Positions 35,845 to 40,608 of a stretch of 64,000 bases of DNA are shown one piece after another. The DNA is from Marinobacter salsuginis (GTDB taxonomy: Bacteria; Pseudomonadota; Gammaproteobacteria; Pseudomonadales; Oleiphilaceae), in contig NZ_BGZH01000001.1 in NCBI RefSeq assembly GCF_009617755.1, positions 682,001 through 746,000 of the forward strand, in the 5' to 3' direction. Position 1 is the first letter of the stretch. Every line of letters starts with the position of its first letter. Below the pieces are notes generated by a model. The model worked only from the letters and a program-made list of their open reading frames with translations, was not told the DNA's origin and ran no database searches. The translations under genes were made by a program, and so were the position numbers.

Positions 35845-36129
35845 TGGAAGGCTACTCCATTGTTGTTCTGAGTCGCTGCTCTGATTATTGGTGTTCACGA
35901 TGTATTGGAGGCTTCATGCACAGTGCTCGTGATGTTGGCACTATAGCTAACGCCTTCAGGCGCTTTGATCAGTCAAAAGTATGATTTTGCTCTCATCCCT
36001 CTGTTAACGCCGTTTGCCGCCGGGTTTCTTCGCACAGAATCACTATAGACAACAAATTTGGATGCAACCACTTTGGTTTTGGTGGTTTTTTCGCGGTTTC
36101 TATTGGCGCCGCGAGTTGGGCGAAGCGCC

Positions 36130-36233
36130 GAGGGGAGGAATGTTTCTCCAGGAACCGCTACGAGCACATCCGTGTGCGCTTGACGTCGGCCATCCTTGGC
36201 CGCCGACATTCCCGGAGAAACATTCATCCCCTC
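36130..36233 (-). repeat. Repeat element A: variable-arm, double CsrA-loop element
   Basis: Arms 36130-36149 and 36214-36233 are complementary over 20 bases with one mismatch. The core has two hairpins. On the minus strand they are GGCCAAGGATGGCC (36188-36201) and GCACACGGATGTGC (36164-36177), with loops CAAGGATG and CACGGATG. Both fit CANGGAYG, the CsrA/RsmA consensus. The core is nearly identical to elements B and C, while the arms share no sequence with them. In this orientation the GGA loops would be present in RNA reading from thiolase towards the DUF1302 gene. Confidence 0.75.
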
Positions 36234-36311
36234 AACGCCAGGCCATTGAGTTGGCTTTCAACTGAGCACGCGAAAAAGGATTTTTAGGAACGTATACCCG
36301 GAGATATGGTC

Positions 36312-36417
36312 GGCCGGGGCGGGAGCCCTTCCCGAAACTGTCGGCAGCATGGATGCTGCCGTCAAGCTTACAGGGACGTATTTACAGCGTGTTTCGGGAA
36401 GGGCTCCCGCCTCGGCC
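36312..36417 (+). repeat. Repeat element D: variable-arm, double CsrA-loop element (divergent core)
   Basis: Arms 36312-36338 and 36391-36417 are complementary over 27 bases with one mismatch. On the plus strand the core shows hairpin GGCAGCATGGATGCTGCC (36343-36360) with loop CATGGATG, the shared linker GTCAAGC, then TACAGGGACGTA (36369-36380) with loop CAGGGACG. Both loops fit CANGGAYG, and the second is close to the CsrA SELEX consensus. The core differs in sequence from A to C outside these motifs, so it is a subfamily. It ends 13 bases from the thiolase stop codon. Confidence 0.72.
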
Positions 36418-36429
36418 AGACTCCGAAGC

Positions 36430-37614
36430 TTAGAGCATCTCGATAGCCATAGCGGTTGCTTCACCACCACCGATGCACAGGGCCGCAACGCCTTTCTTTT
36501 TGCCATAGCGTTGAAGGGCGTACATGAGGGTTACCAGCAGGCGGGAGCCGGTTGAGCCGACGGGGTGGCCCTGGGCGCAGGCGCCGCCGTGGATGTTGAC
36601 TTTCTCGGGATCCAGGCCGAGTTCGCGGATGGGCATCATTGCGACCATGGCGAAGGCTTCGTTGATTTCGAAGAGGTCGACGTCGTCTTTGCTCCAACCG
36701 GTTTTGCCGAACAGGGTTTCGATGGCGCCAACCGGGGCGCAGGTGAACTCGGACGGGTGCTGGGATTGGGTGCTGTGGCCAACGATGCGGGCCAGTGGCT
36801 TGAGGCCTCGCTTTTCGGCTTCGGATTCACGCATCAGGAGCAGCGCCGAGGCGCCGTCGGAAATTGATGAGGCGTTGGCGGCTGTTACGGTGCCGTCTTT
36901 CGCGAAGGCCGGACGCAGGCTCGGGATTTTCTCGATATTGGCGTTGTGAGGCTGCTCATCATCCTCGACAACGACCTCGCCTTTGCGACTCTTGACGGTA
37001 ACCGGGATGATCTCCTCTTTAAGCAGCCCTTCTTCGATGGCTTTCTTCGCCCGCGTGAGGGAGGTGATGGCGTACTCGTCCATTTCTTCACGGGTGTAGC
37101 CTTTCTTATCGGCCATTTCCTGGGCGAACGCCCCCATCAGGCGACCGGTTTCAGCGTCTTCCAGGCCATCCAGGAACATGTGATCCTGGGGTGCCTGGCC
37201 AGGGCCCATGCGGTAGCCGCTGCGGACGCCCTGCAGAATGTAAGGGGCGTTGGACATGCTCTCCATGCCGCCGGCAACCATGATGTCGTTGGTGCCGGCT
37301 TTGATCAGGTCGTGGGCGAACATAGCGGCCTTCATGCCGGAACCGCAGAGTTTGTTGATGGTGGTGGCGCCGGTGTGGTCCGGAAGACCGGCCTTGCGCA
37401 TGGCCTGGCGTGCCGGGCCCTGCTTGAGGCCGGCGGGCAGGACGTTGCCCATGATAACTTCCTGCACATCCGTAGGCTGAAGGCCAGCGCGCTTGACGGC
37501 CTCGGCGATGGTGATGGCACCCAGGTCGGTTGCGCTGACGCTGGCCAGGCTACCCTGGAATCCGCCCATGGGGGTGCGGACACCGCTGACGATGACGACG
37601 TTGTCTGTGCTCAT
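36430..37614 (-). CDS. Acetyl-CoA acetyltransferase (thiolase)
   Basis: A 394-residue biosynthetic-type thiolase. The nucleophile Cys90 lies in NKLCGSGMKA. The catalytic NEAFA and GGACAQGHPVGSTGSR histidine segments and the second cysteine in CIGGGEATAMAIE are all present. It condenses or cleaves acetoacetyl-CoA, in fatty acid or ketone body metabolism, or PHB synthesis. It follows zapE in the same direction but a REP-like palindrome lies between. Element D follows its stop. Confidence 0.93.
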   Translation of the reverse strand: MSTDNVVIVSGVRTPMGGFQGSLASVSATDLGAITIAEAVKRAGLQPTDVQEVIMGNVLPAGLKQGPARQAMRKAGLPDHTGATTINKLCGSGMKAAMFAHDLIKAGTNDIMVAGGMESMSNAPYILQGVRSGYRMGPGQAPQDHMFLDGLEDAETGRLMGAFAQEMADKKGYTREEMDEYAITSLTRAKKAIEEGLLKEEIIPVTVKSRKGEVVVEDDEQPHNANIEKIPSLRPAFAKDGTVTAANASSISDGASALLLMRESEAEKRGLKPLARIVGHSTQSQHPSEFTCAPVGAIETLFGKTGWSKDDVDLFEINEAFAMVAMMPIRELGLDPEKVNIHGGACAQGHPVGSTGSRLLVTLMYALQRYGKKKGVAALCIGGGEATAMAIEML

Positions 37615-37640
37615 TTCTGAATCTCTCTGTTGATTGTATG

Positions 37641-37680
37641 GTAGGTTTTTGTCGGACTACGCTTCGCTAATCCGACCTAC
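37641..37680. repeat. REP-like palindrome between zapE and thiolase genes
   Basis: GTAGGT and ACCTAC bracket GTCGGA and TCCGAC around TACGCTTCGCTA, giving an imperfect hairpin. The core resembles a palindrome (GTCGGATTAGCGAAGCGTAA type) that I know from intergenic regions of many proteobacteria. It has no similarity to elements A-D. Confidence 0.6.
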
Positions 37681-37697
37681 TCAGGGCTGTTTTCTTT

Positions 37698-38831
37698 TTA
37701 TGGTTTATGGGGCGCTTCGAGGTATTCCCGGGACTGCATTTCCAGCAGGCGGGATTCGGTGCGCTCGAATTCAAAGCCAAGGCGGCCGCCAGCATAGAGT
37801 TCGGTGATCGGTGCAGCGGCAGAGATGATGACTTTGACGTTGCGGTCGTAGAACTCATCGATCATGTTGATGAAACGGCGAGCCTGGTCATCTTTTTCTT
37901 TGCCCAGGATGGGCACATTGCTGACGATGATGGCGTGGAACTGCCGTGCCATTTCGATGTAATCATTCTGGCTTCGGGGGCCGTCGCACACGTCTTTGAA
38001 ATCAAACCACACCACGTCGTCCGCATGGGCCTGGGCCGGGATTTTTCGACCATTGATTTCCATGGTTTTGCTGTGTTTACCGGCTTCGACCGCCAGGGCA
38101 TCGAAGCTCTTCCGAAGGCTGACGTCCGCTTCCTCGTCAAGGGGGGAGTGGAACAGCTCCGCCTGCTCGAGAGTCCTCAGTCGGTAATCAACTCCGCCAT
38201 CCACGTTGACCACATCGGTGTGTTTCTTGACCAGATCGATCGCGGGCAGGAATCTCGCACGCTGAAGCCCGTCCTTGTATAGGCCGTCTGGTACGATATT
38301 AGAGGTGCAAACCAGGGTAACTCCGCGGCTGAACAGCCCGTCCATCAGGGTGGCCAAGATCATGGCGTCACCAATGTCTGACACAAAAAACTCATCGAAG
38401 CAGATAACCCGGGTTTCATCGGCGAATTTTTTGGAGACCAGCTCCAGCGGGTTCTTTTCGCCTTTGAGGGATTTGAGTTCGTTGTGTACCCGCTGCATGA
38501 AGCGGTGGAAATGAACCCGCATCTTGCGATCGAAGGGCAGCGACTCGTAGAAAGTATCCATCAGGTAGGTTTTGCCGCGGCCTACTCCACCCCAGAAATA
38601 CAGCCCCTTGACCGGCTCTTCCTTGCCTTTTTTGAGCTTGCGCAAAAGTTTGGCCTTGGGCTTGCTGCGATCCCTTTCGGCTTCCACCAGTTTGTCGTAC
38701 AGTGATTGAAGGCGCTTGACGGCATCTTCCTGGGCCGAGTCCTTCTGGAAATCGGGGCGTTCAAGATCCTTCTGGTAGCGTTGCCAAGGGGTCATGTTCG
38801 CACTGGTTTCGGAGGACATCGCAGCTGTCAT
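37698..38831 (-). CDS. zapE: ZapE/AFG1-family cell-division ATPase
   Basis: A 377-residue AAA+ P-loop ATPase with Walker A GGVGRGKTYLMD near residue 77, Walker B VICFDEFFVSDIGDAM, and the AFG1 stretch RPVHFHRFM-like VHFHRFMQRVHNELK. ZapE associates with the Z ring at low oxygen or high temperature in E. coli. The start is uncertain: in-frame ATGs at 38882, 38831 and 38819 all lack a strong ribosome site. 38831 was taken as a compromise with family length. It is divergent from zapG. Confidence 0.9.
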   Translation of the reverse strand: MTAAMSSETSANMTPWQRYQKDLERPDFQKDSAQEDAVKRLQSLYDKLVEAERDRSKPKAKLLRKLKKGKEEPVKGLYFWGGVGRGKTYLMDTFYESLPFDRKMRVHFHRFMQRVHNELKSLKGEKNPLELVSKKFADETRVICFDEFFVSDIGDAMILATLMDGLFSRGVTLVCTSNIVPDGLYKDGLQRARFLPAIDLVKKHTDVVNVDGGVDYRLRTLEQAELFHSPLDEEADVSLRKSFDALAVEAGKHSKTMEINGRKIPAQAHADDVVWFDFKDVCDGPRSQNDYIEMARQFHAIIVSNVPILGKEKDDQARRFINMIDEFYDRNVKVIISAAAPITELYAGGRLGFEFERTESRLLEMQSREYLEAPHKP

Positions 38832-39025
38832 CAGGTATTCCCGGAAGTTGAACGTAAATTTGGGCGCCGTATTGTCTCGCATTTAGCGATTTTTCGCCAC
38901 GTTGGCCACCTTTGCGGCAATACGACGATAGGCGCAGGCCGCAATCATGGGATGATGGAGCCTGGGGCGTTATACTCGGCTTGCAGGGGCTTGGCTCACT
39001 TCTAAGTAAAAGGACGACACAGCAT

Positions 39026-39466
39026 ATGACAAACCTGATTCTGGCAGCGATTGCCGCATTGGTTGTTGGCATTGTCATCGGGGTATTTGTTGGCCGTTCC
39101 GGGCAGGGAACGACGCTTCGGCAGCGCCGGGCGGAACAGCAGATTGAGGAACTGAGAAGCGAATATACCCGCTACCAGGCCCAGGTGAATGAACATTTCA
39201 TGGAGTCGGCCCATCTGCTGCGCCGTTTCAACGATGCCTATCGCGATGTAAACCAGCACATGGCCCGGGGCGCCAACCGTCTTTGCAATGATGAGGACTG
39301 GATGGAAGAGTTGGCTCATGAGACTTCCAAGAAGCGCCTGGAGGAAGTCCGCGAGGACGCTTCCGAGCCACCACGGGATTATGCGCCGAAGACGGATCCG
39401 AAGGATTCCGGGACGCTTGCCGAGGACTTTGGGCTCAAGAAGGGTGATAAGGCTCAGCAGGCCTGA
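39026..39466 (+). CDS. zapG: ZapG/YhcB-family inner-membrane protein (DUF1043)
   Basis: A 146-residue protein with one N-terminal membrane segment (LILAAIAALVVGIVIGVFVG) followed by a cytoplasmic coiled-coil (RQRRAEQQIEELRSEYTRYQAQV) and the DUF1043 element VNEHFMESAHLLRRFNDAYRDVNQHMA. YhcB links cell-envelope growth and division. Start at ATG 39026 has AAAAGGA upstream; longer frames to 38912 have none. Its divergent neighbour zapE is the usual gammaproteobacterial arrangement. Confidence 0.9.
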   Translation: MTNLILAAIAALVVGIVIGVFVGRSGQGTTLRQRRAEQQIEELRSEYTRYQAQVNEHFMESAHLLRRFNDAYRDVNQHMARGANRLCNDEDWMEELAHETSKKRLEEVREDASEPPRDYAPKTDPKDSGTLAEDFGLKKGDKAQQA

Positions 39467-39529
39467 TTCGTTCAAGGCCTGACCTTAATTCGGCGGTCGG
39501 GCCATCGTAAGACTTCTAATTTCGGTGAG

Positions 39530-39641
39530 TGGGCGGGTCGGACACCCCTGTCCGGGAACCGCTACGAGCACATCCATGTGCGCTTGACGTCGGCCATCCT
39601 TGGCCGCCGACATTCCCGGACAGGGGTGTCCGACCCGCCCA
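39530..39641 (-). repeat. Repeat element B: variable-arm, double CsrA-loop element with perfect 28-bp arms
   Basis: Arms 39530-39557 and 39614-39641 are perfectly complementary over 28 bases. Minus-strand core hairpins are GGCCAAGGATGGCC (39592-39605) and GCACATGGATGTGC (39568-39581), loops CAAGGATG and CATGGATG, both fitting CANGGAYG. Each arm is also a small palindrome (CGGACA-CCCC-TGTCCG). It lies in the 251-base gap between the convergent ends of zapG and the Nif3-like gene, and its GGA strand is the Nif3 transcript strand (3' side). Confidence 0.77.
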
Positions 39642-39717
39642 GCCAGATTCTGTGCAATTCGCCTTGAGAATGAAACATCGCTCAGATTAAGGCTTCAAAC
39701 TCAGTTCGTACTAGCTT

Positions 39718-40461
39718 TTAAACCGGGTTGTCGCAATCAATAAACTTGTGGGTTACCCCAAACTCTTGGGCTAGCGCCTTTCCGAGAGCCTGCACACCAT
39801 AACGCTCGGTCGCGTGGTGTCCGGCAGCGTAGTAATGAATTCCACACTCCCTTGCCGTGTGCGTCGTCGGCTCGGAGATTTCACCGCTTATATAAGCGTC
39901 GAGCCCCGCCTCCTGAGCTGTATTAATAAACCCCTGCGCAGCACCGGTACACCAACCTACCCTCTTGATCGAAGTCGGACCTTCGCCAACCCAGAGCGGT
40001 TCACGGTGGAGCTGTCTTGCAATATGGAGACCGAATTTCTCGGGAGACATTGCTTCTGCCAGCTCGCCTTCCCAGACCAGACCGCCGAGCGGGCGCGGGT
40101 TCTTGATGTTGAGGATATCCGCCAGCTGACGGTTATTGCCGTATTCGGGGTGGTCATCCAGTGGGAGGTGGTAGGCAACGAGATTGATGTCGTTGTCGAG
40201 AAGCTGTTTCAAGCGTTCTCGTTTCATCCCCTGAATACGTTGATCCTCGCCTTTCCAGAAGTAACCGTGGTGGACGAGGATCATATCGGCGTTTGCTTCG
40301 ATGGCGGCTTCGATGAGCGCTTTTGAGGCAGTTACGCCAGAAATGACGGTTTTAATTTCGGACGTGCCTTCAACCTGTAAGCCATTGGGACAGTAATCCT
40401 GGAAATCATCGGGCTGGAGCCATTCGTTGATTTTATTCAGAATCTCATTTCGACTGGCCAT
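39718..40461 (-). CDS. Nif3-like dinuclear metal centre protein (YbgI family)
   Basis: A 247-residue Nif3/DUF34 protein with family motifs DYCPNGLQVEG near residue 18, MILVHHGYFWKG near 62, YHLPLDDHPEYGNN near 97, and C-terminal YYAAGHHATERYGV, which supply the histidines and glutamate of the dinuclear metal site. Proposed GTP cyclohydrolase-like or chaperone-like roles are unproven. I chose ATG 40461, with GGAG upstream; the open frame to 40539 runs into repeat element C and is spurious. Confidence 0.9.
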   Translation of the reverse strand: MASRNEILNKINEWLQPDDFQDYCPNGLQVEGTSEIKTVISGVTASKALIEAAIEANADMILVHHGYFWKGEDQRIQGMKRERLKQLLDNDINLVAYHLPLDDHPEYGNNRQLADILNIKNPRPLGGLVWEGELAEAMSPEKFGLHIARQLHREPLWVGEGPTSIKRVGWCTGAAQGFINTAQEAGLDAYISGEISEPTTHTARECGIHYYAAGHHATERYGVQALGKALAQEFGVTHKFIDCDNPV

Positions 40462-40498
40462 AAAAACTCCATTTAGGACTATTTCCGGAAGGTTCGAC

Positions 40499-40608
40499 GA
40501 GGGAGGCAGATGCACCTTCCCGGGAATGTCGCCGGCCATGGATGGCCGGGGTCAAGCGCACATGGATGTGCTCGTAGCGGTTCCTGGGAAGGGGCATCTG
40601 CCTCCCTC
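40499..40608 (+). repeat. Repeat element C: variable-arm, double CsrA-loop element
   Basis: Arms 40499-40526 and 40581-40608 are complementary over 28 bases with two mismatches. Plus-strand core hairpins are GGCCATGGATGGCC (40534-40547) and GCACATGGATGTGC (40558-40571), both with loop CATGGATG, fitting CANGGAYG, with GGA motifs 24 bases apart. The core equals elements A and B in reverse orientation. It fills most of the gap between the Nif3-like start and the hisC end, where the GGA strand is opposite to both flanking genes. Confidence 0.75.

Follow-up and report, generated by a model that had tools for sequence, protein, structure and literature searches.

RNAs with ANGGA in hairpin loops are known from the Rsm/Csr decoys (RsmX/Y/Z, CsrB/C), which bind CsrA/RsmA. 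The published Rsm/CsrA motif is 5'-CANGGANG-3' (PMC6849547, PMC3945005), and systematic evolution of ligands by exponential enrichment (SELEX) gave RUACARGGAUGU, with ACA and GGA 100% conserved and the GGA in a hairpin loop (PMC4347634). Such decoys are encoded by up to about nine genes per genome (RsmX1-5, Y and Z in DC3000; RsmZ1-7 and Y1-2 in Azotobacter; PMC7366521). Two have been reported for Alcanivorax (PMC9788540) and three, from one spacer, for Alteromonas (PMC5864184), and the accessible text of these last two papers does not describe the family that is the subject of this study. TwoAYGGAY (RF01731) entered the literature in 2010 as one of a set of probable RNAs, with a cis-regulatory role thought improbable, from gut samples, gamma-Proteobacteria and Clostridiales (PMC2864571). 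In 2014 it was proposed to sequester CsrA, on the ground of matches to a CsrA-binding motif (PMC4333381). In this study we show that a 64,000-nucleotide stretch of the Marinobacter salsuginis genome (contig NZ_BGZH01000001.1, positions 682,001 to 746,000; the window) carries four elements, A to D, which are part of a dispersed family with 87 copies in this genome. Across the family the stem sequences differ, with changes in one arm compensated in the other, and the loops nearly always keep ANGGA. Judging from these sequence comparisons, the copies are probably RNA modules with two CsrA-site loops that jointly form a genome-wide CsrA decoy.

The four elements and TwoAYGGAY

Each of the four elements is about 110 nt long and has an outer stem of 27-31 bp that encloses two GGA hairpins. 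The sequence of the outer stem varies from copy to copy and is complementary within the copy, and the two hexaloops read ANGGAY and are closed by C-G. Element A (36125..36238, minus strand) has the arms 36125-36154 and 36209-36238, and its loops, read from the sequence as are all the following, are CAAGGATG in hairpin 1 (36191..36198) and CACGGATG in hairpin 2 (36167..36174), both on the minus strand. Element D (36312..36417, plus strand; arms 36312-36338 and 36391-36417) carries CATGGATG (36348..36355) and CAGGGACG (36371..36378) on the plus strand. Element B (39530..39641, minus strand) is formed by the arms 39530-39558 and 39613-39641, 29 bp without mismatch, with the minus-strand loops CAAGGATG (39595..39602) and CATGGATG (39571..39578). 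Element C (40499..40608, plus strand; arms 40499-40526 and 40581-40608) has CATGGATG in both plus-strand loops (hairpin 1 at 40537..40544, hairpin 2 at 40561..40568). The preliminary description of this DNA had placed four elements with two hairpins each at these sites, and the eight loops of the GGA strand read as it had listed them. The long outer stem is predicted in A, B, C and D, with folding z-scores of -8.0 to -10.1; when element D is folded at minimum energy, the first GGA hairpin forms and the second does not. From first G to first G the spacing is 24 nt in A, B and C and 23 nt in D.

An Rfam scan of the window, including the Csr/Rsm RNA families, gave nothing above the cut-offs; at relaxed thresholds element C matched TwoAYGGAY with 30 bits (cut-off 43). 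Over the whole genome RF01731 gave 27 sub-threshold rows, each at a copy of the family. The best of these scored 41.8 bits and 0/27 reached the gathering cut-off of 43 bits, which by Rfam's rule sets the elements apart from TwoAYGGAY. In both, an outer stem encloses a pair of AYGGAY-loop hairpins, the second loop base being any base here. Several subtypes here have G.A mismatches beside hairpin 1, and tandem G.A has been reported for TwoAYGGAY (PMC4333381). We regard the elements of the window as relatives of TwoAYGGAY, not as members by Rfam's rule; the preliminary description had known of no such repeat family, a statement that does not hold in view of this relative. In the literature searched, accessible in part and with most subscription journals outside the search, no high-copy dispersed form of TwoAYGGAY or of CsrA-site repeats is described. 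New here are the copy number, the dispersal, the random orientation to genes, the head-to-head pairing and the conservation of the loops at one orthologous site.

Conservation of loops, fold and strand

The covariance-model search of the genome and its relatives that the preliminary description had proposed led to the dispersed family. For a loop-masked model (R1) the 27 RF01731 rows of the genome and the four elements of the window were aligned and both loops replaced by N; as these 27 rows helped to train R1, it recovers them by construction. In the genome R1 gave 96 rows at E up to 0.1; without the 8 that lie opposite a listed site and one weak row that was left out, 87 copies remain. That the family recurs under this loop-masked model is not chance. 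In 83/87 copies the outer stem measures 23-37 bp, and its sequence is private to each copy.

The loops were counted in 227 copies, 222 of them unique, with 87 rows from the genome itself and the rest from relatives. Hairpin 1 is ANGGA in 220/222 copies. Hairpin 2 is ANGGA in 217 of the 218 copies scorable by a C-G closed three-pair stem (222 in all; the other four are truncated or altered in that stem), as read by a loop finder that favours the GGA register where several fit. The spacing from GGA to GGA is 23-25 nt in all 217 measurable copies. The two-site ANGGA modules that had been proposed for A to D, with GGA motifs 23-24 nt apart, are supported. The base after GGA in 218 hairpin-2 loops is T in 135, C in 72, A in 9 and G in 2, that is N, as in the published motif. 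Hence the earlier claim that loop variation falls only at N and Y is right in confining it to positions that are free in the published motif, and wrong in reading the base after GGA as Y. Named genomes were also scanned with a pattern that left the loop as N6. This gave at least 116 stretches, and the 80 that were fetched contain 88 unique loops. Among these, A is kept in 88, G in 88, G in 87 and A in 87, while N is changed in 14 and the last base in 22 (N versus GGA change, p = 1e-7, relatedness ignored). GGA is not lost as often as other bases; a loss at that rate is what the preliminary description had named as speaking against its reading.

In other genera 55 of 57 rows were read (one partial and one opposite-strand row were dropped), 15 of their 41 loci having been fetched using the loop-aware model R2. 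CANGGANG is kept twice in 43 of these 55 copies, in 10/55 the GGA is there but its loop is shorter or has another closing pair, and in 2/55, both in locus L229, one GGA is lost. From the alignment A5 and the unmasked model R2, copies without two ANGGA were excluded beforehand and one further row was dropped (76 of 77), for which reason loops that are invariant there do not count as evidence; the loops found with R1 and in the N6 scan do. By these counts the GGA lies in a hairpin loop within 5'-CANGGANG-3', as in sites of CsrA/RsmA.

The stems behave in a different way. In 76 diverse copies 95.1% of the cells are paired, with double changes in 24/30 pairs and 605 double-change cells as against 89-160 in slid controls. 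Covariation is 0.671 as against 0.077-0.179 for the slid controls, with a structure derived from the same 76 sequences. Among non-Watson-Crick pairs of the outer stem we found G·T 152 times and A·C 18 times (symmetric scoring, p = 1e-27), and in a fixed 17-pair window 37 and 4 times. A G·T pair is a wobble on one strand and C·A on the opposite strand. The excess of G·T over A·C on the GGA strand therefore shows that selection acts on this strand, in the form of either RNA or single-stranded DNA.

Genomic setting, relatives and one orthologous site

All copies (87/87) are intergenic by a gene prediction made with a codon-usage script. In the window, element D lies directly past the 3' end of a thiolase-like gene, on the antisense strand of that gene, element B lies downstream of a NIF3-like gene, and element C lies between the NIF3-like gene and a hisC-like gene, antisense to both; these gene names are what we take the sequences to encode. 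Of the 87 copies, 24 are antisense to both neighbours, 24 lie in convergent spacers, 20 are sense to both and 19 lie in divergent spacers. In tandem spacers the 20 sense and 24 antisense copies (p = 0.65) amount to a random orientation to genes, and the suggestion that the modules are scattered in untranslated regions is in this respect not borne out. Relative to each other the copies are ordered: copies within 400 nt stand head-to-head in 10/10 cases in this genome and in 22/22 cases in other loci of the genus (32/32; p = 5e-20 for an expectation of one in four, not corrected for relatedness). Within 1000 nt this holds for 14/15 in the genome and 34/39 in the other loci of the genus. In other genera 8/13 are head-to-head; four of the others are spacings between same-strand copies of a single tandem array, and one pair is tail-to-tail. 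Such an array was seen in L242, from another genus of the order, as six rows (five full and one partial) on the same strand about 227 nt apart.

Other sequences recur around the elements. REP-like palindromes (repetitive extragenic palindromes) of the type GTAGGTCGGATTAG...CTAATCCGACCTAC lie in the window at about 37641-37680 and between head-to-head pairs of elements (C1:436837/437149, 585409/585678 and 761115/761387), and a motif derived from them is present in about 13% of the copies' 5' flanks. The 3' flank, at a distance of about 10-55 nt from the outer stem, is poor in T (about 0.15) and rich in A (about 0.35), and many copies have a CAGGCTAG-like motif there.

The spacer between hisC and NIF3 made it possible to follow one site among species. 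We fetched 30 loci among the 60 genomes with NIF3 and found a full copy in 21, a partial copy in three and none in six; of these six, L151 is interrupted there by an assembly gap that falls within a palindrome, and L162 ends soon after the gene start. In the 21 copies GGA is present in both loops (21/21), the loops change only at N and at the last position, and compensatory change occurs in 14/18 outer pairs. The orientation flips between species: the element is antisense to NIF3 in 11 of these copies and sense in 10. L152 and L156 show the site with and without the element, and the 6-bp repeat GGCCGG stands at both ends of the element, so the difference may be a deletion between short repeats or an insertion. 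Two observations were made beside this. Many species with an antisense element show, by eye, a TATAGTC-like box beside the start of NIF3, and no such box was seen in those with a sense element. In C1:437149 and C1:1644897, and in the relatives L141, L143 and L167 near NIF3, the 3' half of the element is replaced by a GAAGCGAAGCTTCATGCGA-like sequence whose junction lies near the GGA of hairpin 2, and this sequence may insert at that loop.

Orientation bears on the explanation that the modules are cis-acting CsrA sites in mRNA leaders and tails, where read-through transcripts would carry the module and CsrA would set mRNA stability or translation. In agreement with it, one or both neighbours of 63/87 copies are read in the GGA direction, and for many copies the distance to a gene end is no more than some tens of bases. 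The 24/87 copies that are antisense to both neighbours have 20 G·T and 0 A·C pairs all the same, and together with the flips at hisC/NIF3 this makes the explanation improbable in our view.

R1 copies are present in 60/61 sampled genomes of the genus, the genome studied here included, with 2 to at least 76 per genome where present (76 candidates scored) and zero in one. In the order, R2 matches in 115/293 genomes and 56/118 genera (14 candidates scored per genome), and R1 matches in 28 of 34 genomes of other genera that had been preselected by an R2 match. Among the matches listed for one subtype pattern, 78/80 stretches are from Marinobacter, and the rest are from Idiomarina and a Rhodopirellula metagenome-assembled genome. 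RF01731 itself matches in 24/145 genomes of the order at E up to 0.001, and 13 pass its cut-off; four positive genomes have 15-16 rows among 17 candidates scored, several of them in head-to-head pairs. R2 finds the central Rfam site in 9/19 fetched over-cut-off loci and in 14/29 overall. At TwoAYGGAY sites its E-value is below 1e-6 in L258, L259, L260, L269, L281 and L283 and 0.004-0.008 in L282, L284 and L286, and 10/19 over-cut-off loci have no R2 match at the site.

A distribution of this kind might also be that of a non-autonomous mobile repeat (REP- or MITE-like, the latter a miniature inverted-repeat transposable element), whose hairpins would be bound as single-stranded DNA by a transposase, so that the loops would be contacts of the transposase and not of CsrA. 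REPs are 20-40 nt long, and REPs and bacterial interspersed mosaic elements (BIMEs) often occur in inverted pairs. Like these, the elements here are dispersed intergenic palindromes, often in inverted pairs; they differ from REPs in their length of about 110 nt, their branched fold and the strictly head-to-head order of close pairs in the genus. The high copy number, the intergenic dispersal and the random orientation fit a mobile repeat, as do a copy number that runs from 0 to at least 76 between species and the presence and absence at L152 and L156 with the same repeat at the element ends. A DNA hairpin of one strand would likewise tolerate G.T better than A.C. Near-identical recent copies are missing: in the 26-nt arms of 83 copies the nearest-neighbour identity has a median of 0.69 and a maximum of 0.88, while the arms pair at 0.98 within a copy and at 0.61 across copies. 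This low arm identity with high pairing within the copy is in keeping with copies that are old and have each been maintained on their own. At one orthologous site the loops are intact and the stem changes compensatory, which is unexpected of a decaying insertion, and the one subtype pattern searched in viral contigs gave 0 matches. Judging by the divergence of the copies, the orthologous site and the viral contigs, we consider mobility an unlikely explanation of the family.

A proposed CsrA decoy

The genome encodes a canonical CsrA, the absence of which would have spoken against the preliminary description. The protein starts MLILTRRVGETLMVGDD and keeps leucine 4 and arginine 44, known as RNA contacts. 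The conserved loop letters are those of the published Rsm motif CANGGANG, and hairpin 2 (ACANGGAYGT) equals the SELEX core. Since the two-loop fold is conserved and CsrA/RsmA bind such loops elsewhere, CsrA binding is the likely role, and 87 copies with no consistent gene context make a shared decoy likely. A single CsrA dimer would likely bridge the module, with one of its halves on each of the two GGA-loop hairpins. The GGA strand would be transcribed in sense and antisense settings, from own or cryptic promoters, the outer stem would protect the RNA, and the titration of CsrA would be the benefit that keeps each copy. Possibly, and here we are more tentative, the family is a distributed CsrA sponge, in which each genome would have about 80-90 small RNA genes with a transcript of their own, many of them paired head-to-head so that two divergent genes have a promoter region in common.

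From the Rsm/Csr decoys, which are classically GacA-driven, such a system differs in its 87 copies, in the lack of a GacA site and in the lack of an RsmZ above cut-off. With the known GacA upstream motif, 0/222 of the 5' flanks matched at up to 1 mismatch and 3 at 2. RsmZ (RF00166) gave two weak rows genome-wide, none above the cut-off, and 8/14 control genomes give equal signals below the cut-off with this model; the other Csr/Rsm families were scanned in the window. Promoter signs are weak. TATATC occurs 10-20 nt upstream of the stem in 8/178 flanks exactly and in 27 at up to 1 mismatch, above other bins. Motif discovery in the 5' flanks ranked a short AAGTCTGA-like stretch beside the stem first and, at larger widths, returned a separate REP-like repeat; neither was taken as a promoter.

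Several results weigh against the reading as a decoy, among them the missing GacA site. On the other strand of that stretch TATATC scores no lower (31), so these signs are not strand-specific, and the box does not become more frequent when the upstream gene is directed away from the element (12/42, as against 13/42 in the other cases). As orientation flips in evolution, such as those at hisC/NIF3, a copy that is now antisense may owe its G·T pairs to the other orientation. Broken copies exist in the genome (437149, 907548, 1481913 and 1644897), and 2/88 loops of the N6 scan have lost GGA. A U-run is found on the GGA strand in 0/219 copies. This last count, with few U-runs (11/219) on the other strand too, also tells against a reading of the elements as strong palindromes that terminate transcription in both directions or form the 3' ends of mRNAs, in which case the loops would be conserved on other grounds. 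The stems are indeed very stable and many copies lie close to stop codons, but the conserved GGA in both loops and the spacing of 23-25 nt would be left unexplained, and we consider terminators very unlikely.

If the family were indeed a CsrA sponge, CsrA activity would be set by the copy number and location of its genes and not by one or two GacA-driven decoys. With 87 copies and about 170 likely CsrA sites in this genome, and with matches across the genus and in 56/118 sampled genera, this would change the view of CsrA titration in these bacteria. As such it would also give a testable role to TwoAYGGAY, an RNA family that was listed in 2010 without a function.

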